Notes under the pieces: model-generated
Told to the model about the DNA's origin: nothing
Seen by the model: the letters and a program-made list of their open reading frames with translations, nothing else
Database searches by the model: none
Source of the DNA: an uncultured Alphaproteobacteria bacterium
Lineage (GTDB): Bacteria; Pseudomonadota; Alphaproteobacteria; VGEJ01
Assembly: GCA_913041535.1 (NCBI GenBank)
Contig: CAJWJK010000009.1
Span: 1-59,411, forward strand
Direction: 5' to 3'
Length of the DNA: 59,411 nucleotides
Shown here: positions 2,429 to 53,803 of the stretch, piece by piece
Numbering within the stretch: position 1 is the first letter of the stretch
How the letters are laid out: each line of letters begins with the position of its first letter
Translations under genes and position numbers: made by a program

Positions 2429-5400
2429 ATGCCTCACGCTGATTGCGTTCATCTTAGGGTACATACGGCTTACTCTCTTTTAGAGGGAGCGATGCAGATC
2501 GAGAGGCTTGTCCAAATGTGTTGTGAACACCAAATGCCGGCTGTCGCTATCACAGATACCGGCAATATGTTTGGTGCTCTAGAATTTTCTGAGGAATGTG
2601 CTCGTTCGGGCGTGCAGCCCATTATTGGTTCCGCTATCGGAGTCGACTTTATGCCTGACGAGGTTAACGGGTCGGATGCGTCACGGCAGCGTGATTCGGG
2701 CCACCTTGTACTGTTGGCGAAGGATCGAATTGGATACCAAAATCTTATGTCCTTATCTAGTCATTCCTTCATGGATACTGAAGTTGGCATCCCCCCGAGG
2801 GTTAGCATCGAGAAACTAAGAACGTGTTCTGCCGGTTTAATAGCTCTCACTGGCGGCCCACGGGGAATAATCGGCATACCGATACTCGAGAATCAGCTTA
2901 ACGTTGCTGAACGATTTCTCAGTGATCTCCAGTCAGTATTTGCAGATCGCCTATACATCGAAATTCAAAGGCACGGTATGCAAGATGAGATCAATAGCGA
3001 GGCAGCGTTTCTTCACATGGCCTATTCTCGTGATATACCATTAGTTGCAACTAACGAAGTGTACTTTCCTGATGAGTCTATGTATGAAGCCCATGATGCA
3101 TTACTTTGTATTGAACAGAGAACTACTTTAAGCGCTCCCGAACGAAGCCGTATGACCCCGGAGCATCGGTTTAAGTCGGCTCCTGAGATGCGCCAGGTAT
3201 TTAATGATTTACCTGAGGCGTTGGACAATACAAATGTAATTGCTCAGCGTTGCGCATACCGACCACGATCCCATGAACCAATACTACCGGCATATCAGGC
3301 AGTCAGTGGACGTAGCCCTGAGGATGAATTACGTGCTTTAGCTCGCGAAGGCCTGAAGGCACGACTAAAGTCAGACAACGCCACCAATCCAACAGTGAAG
3401 TACGACGAACGCCTTGAGTTTGAGTTGGATGTTATCGTTTCGATGGGATATGCGGGTTATTTTTTAATTGTTGCTGACTTCATCCGATTTGCACGTGAAG
3501 CGGATATTCCAGTAGGGCCCGGACGTGGTTCTGGAGCGGGCTCACTGGTCGCCTGGGCTCTGAGAATAACAAGTTTGGACCCGTTGCGGTTCGGTCTTCT
3601 TTTTGAACGTTTTCTAAATCCTGATCGAATTTCGATGCCAGACTTTGATATTGACTTTTGCCAAGAGCGTCGGGACGAAGTGATTCGATATGTTCAATGC
3701 AAATACGGTAGGGAGAAGGTCGCACAAATCATCACTTTTGGCACGCTGCAGGCAAGAGCTGCACTTCGAGATGTTGGCCGTGTTTTGGAACTACCTTATG
3801 GCCATGTAGACCGAATATGTAAAATGGTTCCTTATAACCCAGCTAATCCTATCACTTTGTCTGAAGCAGTTGATGCAGAACCACGACTTAGCCAGGAAAG
3901 GGATGAGGATCCAGATGTTGGTCGAATGCTTAAAATTGCATCTAAGCTTGAAGGTCTCTATAGGCATGCTTCGACTCATGCTGCGGGTGTGGTTATTGGT
4001 GATAGGCCGATTGACGAACTAGTGCCACTGTATCTTGATCCTCGGTCAGGAATGCCTGCCACTCAGTTCTCTATGAAATTTGTTGAAATGGCAGGACTCA
4101 TCAAGTTTGATTTTTTAGGGTTAAAAACGCTGACAGTTATTGATTACGCGCGGCGTATGCTGGAGAAACAGCGTATCAGTGTTGATATCGAAAATATTGC
4201 ATTGGACGATACGGCTACGTACGAGATGTTGCAGCGGGGAGAGACCGTTGGTGTATTTCAGTTTGAAAGTTCAGGAATGCGAGATTTGATTCGTGAAGCA
4301 ATTCCGACCCATATTGAAGATCTGATTGCGTTGGTGGCTTTGTACCGACCTGGTCCGATGGAAAACATTCCTAAGTACGTTGCTTGTAAACACGGTCGTG
4401 AAGATCCTGAGCACTTGCATGATACAATTTCGCCGGTAGTTTCTGATACGTATGGCGTAATTATATATCAAGAACAGGTTATGCAGATTGCACAAGTGTT
4501 TGCCGGATTCTCTCTTGCCCAGGCTGATCTACTGCGGCGTGCAATGGGTAAGAAGATTAAATCAGAAATGGCAGCGCAACGCGAAAGCTTTGTTGAAGGA
4601 GCGATAGCGCGCTCGGTATCCAGGGAGAGGGCCGCTCATGTTTTTGATCTAGTTGACAAGTTTGCTGGGTATGGATTTAACAAGGCCCATTCGGCTGGCT
4701 ATGCTCTTATTGCGTATCAAACTGCTTGGCTTAAGGCAAATTACCCGGTTCAATTTCTAGCGGCATCTATGAGCCTTGATATTGGAAATACTGACAAGTT
4801 AGATATTTTTCGGCGCGAGGCCATTCGCCTAGGGATTGAGATCAAACCTCCCGATATCAACCATTCTGGGGTTCTATTTACAGTCGAAATGAGTACTGCG
4901 AATGAAGGCTCTTCAAATCCTCCTAACGCATCGATTCGTTACGCCCTTGCTGCAATTCGTAATGTCGGAGAGCAGGCTATGGCAGGAATAGTAGAGGAAA
5001 GGAAAAAGAATGGGCCCTTCAAAGATCTATTTGATTTTGCCCATCGCTTTGATTCTAGCTCTGTAAATAAGCGACAATTAGAGAGTTTGACCTGGGCAGG
5101 CGCTTTTGACTCACTGTCTGAAAATCGAGAGCAGGCCTACACCGCGTTGGACATCATTTTACGCCTTGCGAATAGCAGACAGAATGCAGACAACGATCAG
5201 ACATCGCTTTTTGAGGTGGGATTAGAAGCAGAAGAGAAAAGTATCGACCTTCCAGACGTTGAGCGGTTATCCCCATCTGAATTGCTAAACCGGGAGTTCG
5301 ATTCCATCGGTTTTTGGTTGTCCGCGCATCCTTTAGAAGTCTATTCAAGTTCTCTCAAAAGGCTTGGGGCACGGCCTTCCCTTGAGCTTTTGGAGGCAAC

Positions 5401-47989: not shown

Positions 47990-48955
47990 ATGACCATAGC
48001 AATCGGACCTATAAAACTTACTGATCCGGTAATTCTCGCTCCACTGAGCGGTATTACGGATAAGGCATTCCGTCGGATCGTGAAAAACCTTCGTGCCCCC
48101 CTTGTGGTATCCGAGATGATTGCGAGCCAAGCGATGATACGTAAGACCCGTCACGCGATGAAGCAATGTCTAACTGATCCGGAGGCTTTTCCGTCGGCGG
48201 TACAGCTAGCAGGTCGTGAACCTAAGGTAATGGCTGAAGCAGCTCGTTTGGTGGAAGATTTTGGAGCATCTATTATTGACATCAATATGGGCTGTCCTGC
48301 CAAAAAGGTTGTCAACGGATACGCTGGATCAGCGCTTATGCGTGATGAAACTTTGGCAGCGAATCTTATCGAAGCAACCGTAAAAGCGGTAAAAGTGCCA
48401 GTAACACTAAAAATGAGGACTGGTTGGAGCGATGAAAATCGGAACGCTCCCCGTTTGGCTGCAATAGCCGAAGGATGCGGAGTTCGCATGGTGTCCATCC
48501 ATGGTAGAACTAGATGCCAGATGTATAAGGGAAAATCAGACTGGAACTTTGTTCGAAGAGTAAAACATTCTGTGAAAATACCCGTTATAGTGAACGGCGA
48601 TATCACTACGTTCGAAGATGCAGAAGAGAGTCTCTCTGCATCACACGCGGATGGAGTTATGATTGGGCGTGGAGCATGTGGCCGCCCTTGGTTCATAAAT
48701 CAAGTCGCGCACTATCTTCGCACAGGCGTTCGTTTGCCAGATCCAAAACCGTGTGAGAAGGCAGCCATTATTGAGGAACACTATGAAGGTTTGCTATGCC
48801 TATACGGCAAGGATATCGGGGTACGTAGCGCCCGGAAACATTTGGCATGGTATTCTCGGAATATGCCGAATGCGACGGAATTTAGAAGAGATATCAATAA
48901 CCTTTGTGAACCAGATCTAGTTCGCGCAAAGATTCGTGCGTTCTTTTTGGTGTAG
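47990..48955 (+). CDS. dusB: tRNA-dihydrouridine synthase (DusB/NifR3)
   Basis: FMN enzyme that reduces specific uridines in the tRNA D-loop. From ATG 47990 it has 321 residues with [39 protein letters not shown], the active cysteine C102 in [50 protein letters not shown] and [12 protein letters not shown]. The frame from 47924 adds 22 unconserved residues. nifR3 as the first gene of an ntr cluster (nifR3-ntrB-ntrC) is a classic alphaproteobacterial arrangement. Here the next gene is a reduced ntrC and ntrB is absent. Confidence 0.95.
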
Positions 48956-48974
48956 GCGGAAATAGCTATGGATC

Positions 48975-50042
48975 ATGAGTAAAAACCCAACTGGCAATAA
49001 CCAATTCGGCAATGAGGCTTCGGGCTGTCAGCAGTCATTGGTTGGTCGGTCAGCGCCAATGCAAGCGTTGCGGCAGCAGATTAAGGAGCTAAGCCGCAGG
49101 TCGTTTGCCGTTGTGCTTGTTGGCGAACCAGGAACTGGAAAAGAGCTTGTTGCTCGTATGTTGCACCAACAAAGTGGAAGAGCGTCACGTCCTTTTGTAG
49201 TGGTGGACATCGCTGATATTCCGCAGAGATTAATCGATGCCACACTTTTTGGTCACAAGGCAGAATCAACGTTATTACCCCATCTCAGCAGTGAGGGGAG
49301 GTTCTTTCAGGCAAGAGGAGGCACTTTGTACCTTAATGGTATTTCAAATTTGCCACTTCATGCGCAAGAAAGGTTCCTTCGTGTTCTTAACGGTGATGCT
49401 GGGGCACGGCGCATTAAAGTAAAACCTCGTATTATTGTTTCCACTAATCATAATCTTCGAAGGAGTGTTGATAGTGGAAGTTTCAGGGAAGACCTGTTTA
49501 ATCGGGTCTGTTCCCTTCCTGTGTACGTGCCATCTTTACGTGATCATATTTCTGACCTTGATAGCTTGATTGACTTTTTTGCTAAATTTTCTCTAAGCGA
49601 AAAGCGCCCGTCAGTGAGGTTTGACCAAAGCGCTATGGAAATACTTAGAAGCTACGAATGGCCGGGTAATGTAGATGAACTGATTACTATTATTGATCGC
49701 TGCTCAACTTTTTACCCTAACAGTACCGTACAAGGTGAAACTATAAAGATCCAACTAACGTGCAGTGCTAAGGATCATGCAGAACCAAAACCGCCTCATA
49801 GTCTATCAGAAGCCGTCGAGCATCATCTTAGTCGCTACTTTTCTTTACATGGAAGTGCTCTGCCCCCTGATGGACTGCATACAAGAGTTTTGCGGGAGAT
49901 TGAGCGACCTTTGATTACGCTGAGTTTATCGGCGACTGGGGGTAATCAGCAAAAGACTGCTCGCCTTTTGGGGATTAACCGCAATACTTTGCGGAAGAAG
50001 ATTCGTGAAATGGACATTACCACTTTTCGCCTTCGCCGCTGA
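48975..50042 (+). CDS. Degenerate NtrC-like protein without receiver domain
   Basis: A 355-residue homolog of the NtrC central and DNA-binding domains, placed where ntrC normally follows dusB. There is no N-terminal receiver domain: the protein starts about 20 residues before the AAA+ core. Walker A GEPGTGKE is intact (50-57). The segment replacing the GAFTGA sigma-54 loop reads FGHKAESTLLPHL. The Walker B DE pair is N121 G122 (GGTLYLNGIS). The sensor II arginine in WPGNVREL is aspartate (D234 in WPGNVDEL). Residues in REDLFNR are kept. The C-terminal part (EREIERPLITLSL-like and NQQKTARLLGINRNTLRKKI) is a well-conserved Fis-type helix-turn-helix. It likely binds NtrC-type sites but probably cannot hydrolyse ATP or activate sigma-54 polymerase; the reading frame is intact, so it may still be used. 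Confidence 0.85.
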   Translation: MSKNPTGNNQFGNEASGCQQSLVGRSAPMQALRQQIKELSRRSFAVVLVGEPGTGKELVARMLHQQSGRASRPFVVVDIADIPQRLIDATLFGHKAESTLLPHLSSEGRFFQARGGTLYLNGISNLPLHAQERFLRVLNGDAGARRIKVKPRIIVSTNHNLRRSVDSGSFREDLFNRVCSLPVYVPSLRDHISDLDSLIDFFAKFSLSEKRPSVRFDQSAMEILRSYEWPGNVDELITIIDRCSTFYPNSTVQGETIKIQLTCSAKDHAEPKPPHSLSEAVEHHLSRYFSLHGSALPPDGLHTRVLREIERPLITLSLSATGGNQQKTARLLGINRNTLRKKIREMDITTFRLRR

Positions 50043-50086: not shown

Positions 50087-52360
50087 ATGGTGCCAACTCG
50101 TACGCTGGGTCACCGTAAGGATGCTGCTTCCGTGGTAAGCGATACTCCACACACTGCGACAATTGATCGTTTAATGCAGTTACGGGACTGGGCTCGACGT
50201 GTTGGTATGGCGCGAAAAGTGGCTATTGGCCTAGCGTTGGCAGCACTCGTTGCAGGTGTCACAACCTATGCTCTTTTAACTGGAAACCCGCCTTATGGAC
50301 CAGAGCCCCGCACTATTGTCATTATTTTGCTGGTTGATTTGGTATTGTTGCTTTGTCTGGGAGCTCTTATTGCGCGACGGCTGGTGCGCCTTTGGGCTGA
50401 AAGGAGGCGTGGTTCTGCTGGATCAAAGTTGCATATACAACTTGTTGCTTGGTTCAGCATAGTAGCTGTTGCGCCAGCAATAATCGTTGCCGTATTTTCC
50501 GCATTATTCTTTAACTTAGGTGTGCAAAGCTGGTTCAGTGAGCGAGTGAGGACAGCATTACAGGAGTCCTTGGCCGTTGCAGTAGCTTACACAAACGAGC
50601 ATCGTAAAGTTATCCAGGGTGACGTACTTGCAATGGCTACAGATCTGAATAGGCAAGCTCCAAGGCTTGCTAGTAATCCCTATGTATTAAGTCAAGTGGT
50701 AACGGCCCAAGCAAGGGTTAGGTCTTTGTCTGAGGCAATTATCTTTCGAGGTGATGGAGAGATTGTTGCACGAACACCACTCAGCCTAGGACTCGATTCG
50801 GATGCTGTTGGCACAAAGGCTCTCGGCAAGGCTAAACAAGGACAAATTGTATTTCTACAAAGTAGGAATGAGGACCGCATACGAGCTCTAATTCGCCTTG
50901 ACCGTTTCATTGATAGCTATCTTTACGTTAGTCGCTTTGTTGAGCCTCAAGTCCTTCTGCACGTTGAACAGACTAAGAGAGCTGTCGCAGCGTATGAGAG
51001 TTTAGAGGGCGAGAGGTCTGTTTTAGAGATAACTTTTGCCATCGTTTTTATAGTCGTAGCCGTATTGTTGTTACTTGTTGCGGTCTGGCTGGGGCTTACC
51101 TTTGCTACACGGATGTTTCGACCAATTGGTGCGTTAATTGGCGCTGCAGAAAAGGTTAGTGAAGGTGATTTAACAGTGCGAGTGCTGGAAAGTAGTGATG
51201 AGAATGAAATTAGCAGTTTGAGTCGTGCCTTTAATCGCATGACTAGTCAGCTTGAGAATCAACGTCAAGAATTGGTAGTAGCTAACCGAGAACTGGAAGA
51301 TCGACAACGTTTCACTTCTGCCGTGCTGGAAGGAGTCTCGGCTGGAGTTATTGGTGTAGACTCTAATCGCAACATTAACTTGCCTAATCGAACTGCTAGC
51401 GTGCTTCTTGGTGTTGATGTTGATGGCTTAATTGGTCGCCCTGTAAGCGCATTAATGCCTGAGATGGCCTCATTGCTGGACTCTGCCCAGAGGCGTCCTA
51501 GACGTCTTGTGCAGGATGAACTAAGTATTGAACGACTTGGTGAATCTCGGAGGCTACTCGTGCGCGTGACAGTAGAATTAGCTAACTCCAATATTGTAGG
51601 TTTTATTATTACTTTTGATGATGTCACTGAACTTGTGACAGCACAACGGACCGCTGCTTGGGCTGATGTGGCCAGACGTGTTGCTCATGAAATCAAAAAT
51701 CCTCTTACACCAATCCGACTTTCAGCAGAACGGCTTAAGCGACGTTATGGGGATGAAATTCAAACTGAGCCAGATGTCTTTGCCCGATGTACAGATACGA
51801 TAATCCGGCAGGTAGTGGCCATAGGCCGAATGGTGGACGAATTCTCTGCCTTTGCTCGAATGCCGTCACCAGTTATCAAGAGAGAGAACGTGACTGAGCT
51901 CGTGCGACAATCTCTTTTTCTTCAGCGTGAAGCGCATCCTGAGATCAACTTTCTTGGTGATCTACCTCAAAAACCTATTTGGTTACGTTGTGATGAGCGC
52001 CAGATTGGTCAAGTAATGACTAATTTGTTACAGAACGCTATCCAGTCGATTGAGGCTCGAGAGGAACCTAAAACGGGAGAGTTGATTAAGGGCTGCATTG
52101 AAGTGCGAGTTAGGCAATTTGAAACTACCGTTGAACTTCAGGTTTTAGACAATGGGCGTGGCTTGCCTGTGGCAGAGAGAGATCGTTTATTGGAACCCTA
52201 TGTAAGCACAAGACCTAAAGGCGCCGGTCTTGGATTAGCTATTGTGAAAAAGATTGCAGAAGACCATGGGGCACGTTTAACGCTTGGAGATAGAGAAGAG
52301 GAGGGGGCTATTGTGTGTCTTTCGTTTCCCAAAAACACTGTGGACACTTCTGACGGTTGA
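50087..52360 (+). CDS. ntrY: Sensor histidine kinase NtrY
   Basis: Membrane sensor kinase of the NtrY/NtrX pair, linked to nitrogen, redox and envelope control in Alphaproteobacteria. The 757-residue protein has two helices near 43-62 and 75-96, a third near 122-143, a periplasmic sensor region at about 145-300, a further helix near 308-335, a HAMP domain (FRPIGALIGAAEKVSEGDLTVRV), a PAS-like region (about 400-520), the phosphoacceptor H534 in VAHEIKNPLTPIRLS, and ATP-binding boxes (MTNLLQNAIQSIEAR, LDNGRGLP, PKGAGLGLAIVKKIAEDHGA). Its partner ntrX follows after 48 bases. With ntrB missing it is the only nitrogen-type kinase in the cluster. Confidence 0.94.
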   Translation: MVPTRTLGHRKDAASVVSDTPHTATIDRLMQLRDWARRVGMARKVAIGLALAALVAGVTTYALLTGNPPYGPEPRTIVIILLVDLVLLLCLGALIARRLVRLWAERRRGSAGSKLHIQLVAWFSIVAVAPAIIVAVFSALFFNLGVQSWFSERVRTALQESLAVAVAYTNEHRKVIQGDVLAMATDLNRQAPRLASNPYVLSQVVTAQARVRSLSEAIIFRGDGEIVARTPLSLGLDSDAVGTKALGKAKQGQIVFLQSRNEDRIRALIRLDRFIDSYLYVSRFVEPQVLLHVEQTKRAVAAYESLEGERSVLEITFAIVFIVVAVLLLLVAVWLGLTFATRMFRPIGALIGAAEKVSEGDLTVRVLESSDENEISSLSRAFNRMTSQLENQRQELVVANRELEDRQRFTSAVLEGVSAGVIGVDSNRNINLPNRTASVLLGVDVDGLIGRPVSALMPEMASLLDSAQRRPRRLVQDELSIERLGESRRLLVRVTVELANSNIVGFIITFDDVTELVTAQRTAAWADVARRVAHEIKNPLTPIRLSAERLKRRYGDEIQTEPDVFARCTDTIIRQVVAIGRMVDEFSAFARMPSPVIKRENVTELVRQSLFLQREAHPEINFLGDLPQKPIWLRCDERQIGQVMTNLLQNAIQSIEAREEPKTGELIKGCIEVRVRQFETTVELQVLDNGRGLPVAERDRLLEPYVSTRPKGAGLGLAIVKKIAEDHGARLTLGDREEEGAIVCLSFPKNTVDTSDG

Positions 52361-52408: not shown

Positions 52409-53803
52409 GTGGCTCATGAAATTCTAATAATCGATGACGAGGAGGATATACGTGAGCTTGTATCCGGAATTCTAGTTGATGAGGGTTACGAGACACGTTT
52501 GGCTCGAAATAGCGAGGAAGCACTGGCTGAAATAAAACATCGTTGTCCAGCTCTTATAATTCTTGATATCTGGCTCGACGGAAGTGCTTTAGACGGCTTG
52601 GGTTTAATTGAGGTTATTCTTCAGGAATACCCCAATCTTCCAGTTGTTATGATTAGTGGACATGGCAACATAGAGACCGCGGTCTCTGCCATAAAACGGG
52701 GGGCATATGACTTTATTGAAAAACCATTTGAAGCTGATCGGCTTCTAGTAGTTGTTCAAAGGGCCATTGATGCTGCGCGGCTACGCAGAGATTATATGGA
52801 CCTAAAACAGAGAACAGGCGATGATGTAAAATTGATTGGAAAATCACCAGTCATGGTCGCCCTTAGACTAGCCATCGACAAAGTGGCTCCAACGTCAAGT
52901 CGTGTGTTGATCACGGGCCCTCCAGGCTGTGGTAAAGAAGTTGCAGCGCGAGTTATTCATGCGCAGTCAAAACGTGCCCAAGGGCCTTTTGTTGCAGTTA
53001 ATGCGGCATCAATGGCTCCAGAGCGTATGGAAGTTGAGCTTTTTGGTGTCGAAGAAGTTGGCGCTTCCCATAAAATTGGTACTTTTGAGAGAGCTCATGG
53101 CGGAACCCTTTTTCTCGATGAAGTTGCGGATATGCCAAAGGAAACGCAGGCTAAAATATTGCGTGTTCTTACGGACCAAGAGTTTACTCGGGTGAATGGC
53201 GTGAAAAGGATAGAGGTTGATGTCCGCGTTGTAACTGGTTCTAGTCGACACCTTAAATCAGAAATTGGATCTGGACGATTGCGTGAGGACCTCTATCACA
53301 GATTAAACGTTGTTCCTATACGTGTTCCTGCATTGAAGGAAAGGCGTGAGGATATACCTGACCTGATTGAATACTTTATGTGTCAAATTGCTGTTATTAC
53401 AGGAATGTCTACGAGGAGAATTTCGGAAGACGCAATGGCGTCCCTACAAGCGAGTGAATGGCCAGGTAACGTGCGGGAACTGCGCAATGCAGTTGAACGC
53501 TTGCTTATAATGGTTCCTGGCGATGAAGAATCCATAATCGGTTGTGATATGTTACCGACAGACTTGGGCGCGCCTACTTTTGCTGCCTTCCGACCTAACG
53601 GAGATGATGCAATAATGGCTATGCCTTTACGCCAGGCACGAGAACAATTTGAAAGGGAGTATTTGCTAGCTCAGATTGCGCGCTTTGGTGGAAATATTTC
53701 ACGTACTGCATCCTTTGTAGGGATGGAGAGGTCTGCACTTCACCGCAAGCTAAAGTCACTAGGTGTCACGAATGCTGATAAACAAGTAGTTATCAATACG
53801 TAA
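52409..53803 (+). CDS. ntrX: Response regulator NtrX
   Basis: Partner regulator of NtrY. The 464-residue protein has a receiver domain with phospho-acceptor D53 (IILDIWLDGSALDGLG) and the conserved K105 (FIEKPFE), an AAA+ domain with Walker A GPPGCGKE (170-177), Walker B GGTLFLDEVADMP with D237/E238, REDLYHRLNVVP and an intact sensor II WPGNVRELRNAVER, and a Fis-type DNA-binding end (GGNISRTASFVGMERSALHRKLKSLGV). The GAFTGA loop is missing (FGVEEVGASHKIGTFERA), a change known in alphaproteobacterial NtrX, so sigma-54 activation is doubtful. The start is GTG at 52409. Confidence 0.94.
   Translation: MAHEILIIDDEEDIRELVSGILVDEGYETRLARNSEEALAEIKHRCPALIILDIWLDGSALDGLGLIEVILQEYPNLPVVMISGHGNIETAVSAIKRGAYDFIEKPFEADRLLVVVQRAIDAARLRRDYMDLKQRTGDDVKLIGKSPVMVALRLAIDKVAPTSSRVLITGPPGCGKEVAARVIHAQSKRAQGPFVAVNAASMAPERMEVELFGVEEVGASHKIGTFERAHGGTLFLDEVADMPKETQAKILRVLTDQEFTRVNGVKRIEVDVRVVTGSSRHLKSEIGSGRLREDLYHRLNVVPIRVPALKERREDIPDLIEYFMCQIAVITGMSTRRISEDAMASLQASEWPGNVRELRNAVERLLIMVPGDEESIIGCDMLPTDLGAPTFAAFRPNGDDAIMAMPLRQAREQFEREYLLAQIARFGGNISRTASFVGMERSALHRKLKSLGVTNADKQVVINT

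Follow-up and report, generated by a model that had tools for sequence, protein, structure and literature searches.

The question raised by this locus is what an NtrC that has been stripped of most of its working parts is retained for. The window, meaning the whole 59,411-nucleotide stretch of DNA that was analysed, carries at 48975-50042 (+) a single frame from ATG to TGA that encodes 355 aa with 0 internal stops, in agreement with the one intact frame described in the first-pass annotation. Pfam assigned Sigma54_activat (137.9 bits), AAA_lid_14, and HTH_8 to this ORF and returned no match to Response_reg. NCBIfam ranked it as ntrC (TIGR01818, 280 bits, under the full-length cut-off of 558.6) ahead of nifA (214) and NtrX (193). 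NtrC is single copy in this genome, whose one further full bEBP is NtrX. The gene order is dusB/nifR3, receiver-less ntrC, ntrY, ntrX, trkA, and trkH, and the site between dusB and ntrY-ntrX is the classical alphaproteobacterial nitrogen-regulation locus. As the sole NtrC of the genome, standing at its classical ntrBC-ntrYX locus, the gene is therefore an orthologue and not the paralogue it had been called; a pre-existing paralogue was rejected as its origin, a second NtrC being absent from the genome. The features of the locus, some compared with the relative G001, are as follows.

47990 to 48955, + strand (longer ORF from 47924): dusB/nifR3, the upstream neighbour, 62% identical to G001 dusB; its stop at 48953-48955 is the left border of the ntrB-receiver loss
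48956 to 48974, + strand: 19-nt junction, site of the missing ntrB and receiver-coding part of ntrC, by comparison with G001
48975 to 50042, + strand: receiver-less NtrC orthologue, by best NCBIfam match (ntrC) and synteny
50087 to 52360, + strand: ntrY sensor kinase, intact, 62% identical to G001 NtrY
52409 to 53803, + strand: ntrX, intact (NCBIfam 719.9 bits, cut-off 600)

The codon usage of the receiver-less ntrC agrees with that of the neighbour genes, and a sigma-70 promoter scan of the operon gave fewer matches than were found in shuffles. It was also noted that the window NtrX lacks GAFTGA, as does the NtrX of the RpoN-containing G001; the absence of this motif is ordinary among alphaproteobacterial NtrX proteins.

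G001 is the only relative of the same family and order in the genome set, the family and the order comprising two genomes each, and it belongs to a different genus (protein identity to the window genome about 62-66%). Its locus reads dusB, ntrB (377 aa), ntrC (479 aa), ntrY, and ntrX, its full-length ntrC has the receiver, GAFTGA, the Walker B DE, and the sensor II Arg all present, and RpoN is found in the genome. A relative with a normal Walker B and receiver had been proposed as a sign of sequence error; G001 has such a gene, yet, being of a different genus with sigma-54 and ntrB, it shows how the locus looked ancestrally and does not point to a sequencing error. The last base of the window dusB is 48955 and the ATG of NtrC is at 48975, and it follows from the 19-nt gap that ntrB and the receiver are both gone. 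When the G001 NtrB was used to query the window's own genome, only weak histidine-kinase matches were obtained, the strongest being NtrY. Most simply, a single deletion accounts for the joint loss, this number of events being one that we infer. A contig search for close relatives of the window NtrC recovered only a distant deltaproteobacterial bEBP, and the gene in this exact form comes from one genome whose only family relative stands at about 62% identity.

RpoN (PF04552) was not found in the window's own genome, which has a stated completeness of 100% and in which the positive controls were detected, and the loss of RpoN is the likely cause of the losses in the window NtrC. P-II (GlnB) is present there, adjoining an ORF recognised by eye as glutamine synthetase. 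Approximately 60-100 nt upstream of position 4890 of locus L094, upstream of glnB, the stretch TGGCACATTTTCTTGAA resembles a -24/-12 promoter with the wrong spacing; it is possibly a decayed sigma-54 promoter, or it may have arisen by chance.

Lesions were called on an alignment with 64 GAFTGA-bearing NtrCs, by which all four losses previously claimed (receiver, GAFTGA, Walker B DE, and sensor II Arg) were confirmed, as was the retention of Walker A, which carries S52P, the REDLFNR stretch, and the Fis helix-turn-helix. Coordinates are as follows.

49038 to 49538, + strand: AAA+ alpha/beta core, degenerate, residues 22-188 (43% identity to GAFTGA-bearing NtrCs, 33/88 invariant columns changed)
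49122 to 49145, + strand: Walker A GEPGTGKE, kept (S52P)
49206 to 49208, + strand: D78 replacing the invariant Asn of the Walker B glutamate switch (N78D; PspF N64 by motif position)
49248 to 49286, + strand: L1 loop, FGHKAESTLLPHL where GAFTGA-bearing NtrCs have FGHE(K/R)GAFTGA, GAFTGA lost
49335 to 49340, + strand: N121 G122 replacing the Walker B Asp-Glu (GGTLYLNG against GGTLFLDE)
49386 to 49415, + strand: loop-2 region with approximately 7 residues (EYTxVG) deleted, reading RVLNGD-------AGARR
49485 to 49505, + strand: arginine-finger stretch REDLFNR, kept, within FREDLFNR
49674 to 49676, + strand: D234 replacing the sensor II Arg (WPGNVDEL against WPGNVREL)
49890 to 50012, + strand: Fis-type helix-turn-helix GGNQQKTARLLGINRNTLRKKI, conserved (71% identity to other NtrCs, 1/18 invariant columns changed)

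Beyond those four losses, we found N78D, the deletion of the approximately 7 loop-2 residues, the absence of the NVV that follows the arginine fingers, and the loss of the adjacent ntrB gene. The recognition helix GINRNTLRKKI matches that of other alphaproteobacterial NtrCs. In the active site of PspF, a single hydrogen-bond network links E108, N64, and the sensor II R227 with R162' and D164' of the neighbour (PMC4132715). By motif position the window NtrC has lost the first three of these, while the arginine-finger side of the network is kept (R171, D173) and both arginine fingers are retained.

Despite the lost residues, a bEBP-type AAA+ fold is still predicted. The AlphaFold2 model has a mean pLDDT of 84; most of the AAA+ core lies at 90-97, whereas the L1 and L2 regions reach 67-69. 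In Foldseek the closest solved folds were bEBPs such as NtrX and FleQ, with TMt up to about 0.87-0.89 against the FleQ and FlrC AAA+ domains. Since the 28 sequences of the input alignment are themselves bEBPs, the model shows fold compatibility rather than proof of the fold.

The conservation of the protein differed sharply between its domains. Mean identity of the window NtrC to the 64 GAFTGA-bearing NtrCs was 43% in the AAA+ core and 32% in the lid, compared with 80% and 60% among those 64, whereas the Fis domain stood at 71% against 73%; the selective conservation of the DNA-binding end noticed earlier is thus borne out. Invariant columns were changed at 33/88 positions in the core, 6/18 in the lid, and 1/18 in the Fis domain. 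On a fixed tree, the terminal branches of the window and G001 were 1.72 and 0.19 for the AAA+ core (an approximately ninefold acceleration), 2.01 and 0.22 for the lid, 0.34 and 0.16 for the Fis domain, and 0.40 and 0.36 for NtrY+NtrX. The acceleration is therefore domain-specific, and no acceleration was seen in DusB, NtrY, or NtrX (1-2 points of identity, compared with 17 points in NtrC). By branch length the Fis domain may be evolving about twice as fast, and with 51 residues its description as normal in rate is approximate. Uniform relaxation that includes the Fis domain, which the first-pass annotation had named as the pattern of a decaying pseudogene, is not what these values show. At positions where G001 has the consensus residue, invariant AAA+ columns were retained more often than variable ones (54/87 vs 13/48, p = 1.4e-4). 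The AAA+ domain is relaxed yet still under constraint, and this persistence of constraint argues against reading the gene as a simple pseudogene.

Across 385 genomes sampled from the whole class, the presence of NtrC was compared by hand with the absence of RpoN, and 18 of them, including the window's, carried NtrC without a detected RpoN (G330 among them had a marginal RpoN match). GAFTGA was lost in 9 of these 18, and these 9 fall into five families (f1, f23, f27, f46, and f167), the window's family being one of the five. The other 9 kept it, and several of these are incomplete genomes, so that RpoN may merely be missing from the assembly. The NtrCs extracted from RpoN-containing genomes, mostly as best-scoring matches, all had the loop, to which Caulobacter is a published counterexample. 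All 8 other GAFTGA-less NtrCs keep the Walker B DE and the sensor II Arg. Seven loci of families f23, f27, and f46 (L063, L064, L070, and L112-L115) show differing lesions of the GAFTGA loop, with receiver, NtrB, Walker B, and sensor II kept. In L070, from a genome with no detected RpoN (G046), the Walker A has an S-to-P change (GEPGTGKE) in common with the window, apparently by convergence. The RpoN-less f23 family has a loop deletion like that of Rhodobacter capsulatus and, unlike the window, keeps the receiver, NtrB, Walker B DE, and sensor II Arg. R. capsulatus NtrC likewise retains its receiver and NtrB.

One genome of a different family, G348 (f167, completeness 98%), has no detected RpoN and carries a comparable gene (locus L111:7222-9481), given below.

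L111:7222-8370, - strand: G348 receiver-less NtrC, 382 aa

The order there is dusB, 19 nt, a receiver-less and GAFTGA-less NtrC, ntrY, ntrX, and trkA, and ntrB was not found at the locus. Similar to the window's, this NtrC has lost ntrB, the receiver, and GAFTGA, has an intact Fis domain, and lies 19 nt from dusB. It differs in keeping Walker B (IDEIG) and the sensor II Arg (WRGNVREL) and in having Gln as its second arginine finger. In a tree of NtrY+NtrX the window and G001 were joined with full support and G348 was placed elsewhere, from which it follows that the same ntrB-receiver loss happened twice, independently.

Several GAFTGA-less bEBPs are already known. Caulobacter crescentus NtrC acts at sigma-70 promoters as an activator of some genes and a repressor of others, with the repression in places close to CtrA sites, and its growth on ammonium needs the receiver, Walker A K178, and Walker B D235 (PMC10274813). 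GAFTGA is lost both there and in the window, but Caulobacter keeps the receiver, NtrB, and Walker A and B, and also encodes sigma-54 regulators that carry GAFTGA. The earlier statement that R. capsulatus NtrC lacks GAFTGA, works with sigma-70, and keeps its ATPase holds in its first two parts; the loop is deleted and sigma-70 promoters are served, and, for the ATPase, ATP binding, not hydrolysis, is reported as essential (PMC10274813). The window NtrC shares the GAFTGA loss and Walker A with these sigma-70 NtrCs, and receiver and Walker B are lost only in the window. TyrR, HupR, DhaR, and VpsR are GAFTGA-less bEBPs without sigma-54 dependence, some of which repress (PMC3162934); they belong to other bEBP families, which have sensory domains or receivers of their own, whereas the window gene is an ntrYX-locus NtrC without a sensory domain. 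PspF resembles it in being an AAA+ and DNA-binding domain without a receiver, but is an active sigma-54 ATPase with GAFTGA and Walker B intact that is controlled by PspA. GAFTGA loss in sigma-54-less organisms has been noted before for Jannaschia and Fusobacterium (PMC3162934). No report of an NtrC without receiver, NtrB, and catalytic residues but with the Fis domain was found in the open-access literature.

From these comparisons, we consider it fairly probable that the NtrC of a sigma-54-less lineage was kept as a DNA-binding regulator that acts constitutively and without ATP hydrolysis, most likely by repression or competition at sigma-70 promoters. Once RpoN was gone, NtrC would no longer have been able to remodel sigma-54 RNA polymerase, and the loop that touches sigma-54 would have decayed. 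ntrB and the receiver would have gone through at least one deletion between dusB and the NtrC linker, and Walker B, the switch Asn, and sensor II, which make up the catalytic network, would also have been lost. Selection would still preserve the Fis-type DNA-binding domain, carried by an AAA+ scaffold that folds but does not hydrolyse ATP, and the protein, assembled constitutively into dimers or higher oligomers, would most likely bind DNA and either repress sigma-70 promoters or compete with another regulator there. The absence of receiver and kinase means that there is no phosphorylation input, the absence of the DE, the switch Asn, and the sensor II Arg makes ATP hydrolysis very unlikely, and the absence of GAFTGA and RpoN excludes classical sigma-54 activation. 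In this explanation we infer the order of events, the lack of ATPase activity, the DNA binding, and the repression.

The main rival is an activator of sigma-70 promoters that depends on ATP binding, in which ATP-bound oligomers activate without hydrolysis, as PMC10274813 reports for R. capsulatus NtrC. The retained Walker A and arginine fingers would suit such an activator, and the PspF Walker B mutant E108Q binds ATP approximately 30-fold tighter and is hexameric without nucleotide (PMC4132715). However, the window NtrC has lost the Walker B Asp, the switch Asn, and the sensor II Arg as well, neither a receiver nor NtrB is left to regulate its activity, and in Caulobacter the D235A mutant showed no growth on ammonium and the receiver was required for proper ammonium assimilation (PMC10274813). 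We regard this activator as unlikely.

An early pseudogene, from which selection was lifted so recently that the Fis domain is intact only for lack of time, would explain the strong AAA+ acceleration and the missing partners NtrB and RpoN. Scored by BLOSUM62, the AAA+ substitutions were only a little more conservative than expected under neutrality (P = 0.014), and by hydrophobic class the changed residues were close to neutral (P = 0.20). However, the AAA+ divergence amounts to approximately 185 neutral substitutions' worth while the Fis domain has kept 17/18 invariant columns, and the preferential retention of invariant AAA+ columns and the neighbour-like codon usage also speak against decay. 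In a neutral simulation an AAA+ core at the same divergence stayed open with P = 0.02, frameshifts not counted, a value that we discounted because translation of the Fis domain needs an open frame; retention of the ORF was rejected as proof of AAA+ function on the same grounds. Recent decay therefore appears rather improbable.

A partner subunit of NtrX, which would co-assemble or share operators with NtrX and so modulate NtrY-NtrX output, is consistent with the intact ntrY-ntrX at the same locus, the residual AAA+ constraint, and the position of NtrX as the only other full bEBP, but NtrX conservation is about equal in the window and G001 lineages, and we hold this account to be quite doubtful. 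An artefact of assembly or sequencing (a chimeric deletion or consensus errors) is scarcely credible, for although the data come from one assembly of 39 contigs with 4.25% contamination, the 355 codons are clean and the neighbours normal, 39 changes are scattered over invariant positions of the AAA+ domain and lid against 1 in the Fis domain, and G348 shows the same layout.

We assessed whether the DNA-binding regulator favoured here could act at old NtrC sites, as had been supposed, and this was not borne out. TGCAC-N7-GTGCA with up to one mismatch occurred 53 times in the window's own genome compared with 38 for a reversed-pattern control, consensus-like sites lay inside ORFs at 14 of 15 inspected loci, and the 700 bp preceding glnBA contained no TGC-N11-GCA. 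Classical NtrC operators were rejected as targets on these three results; matches within the window were at chance level.

It appears an evenly balanced proposition that sigma-54 loss repeatedly starts a stepwise dismantling of NtrC, first of the loop, then of ntrB and the receiver, and then of the ATPase, until a selected, autonomous AAA+ pseudo-ATPase DNA-binding regulator is left, with the window as the furthest stage seen and G348 as an independent intermediate. GAFTGA-less NtrCs on sigma-70 promoters were known; the window gene bears on how far an NtrC can be stripped and yet be retained. Such genes would be misannotated as nitrogen two-component activators. Together, the window gene, the full system of G001, and the independent G348 form a natural deletion series after sigma-54 loss, and this series predicts that NtrC DNA occupancy and repression would be independent of phosphorylation, ATP hydrolysis, and sigma-54.
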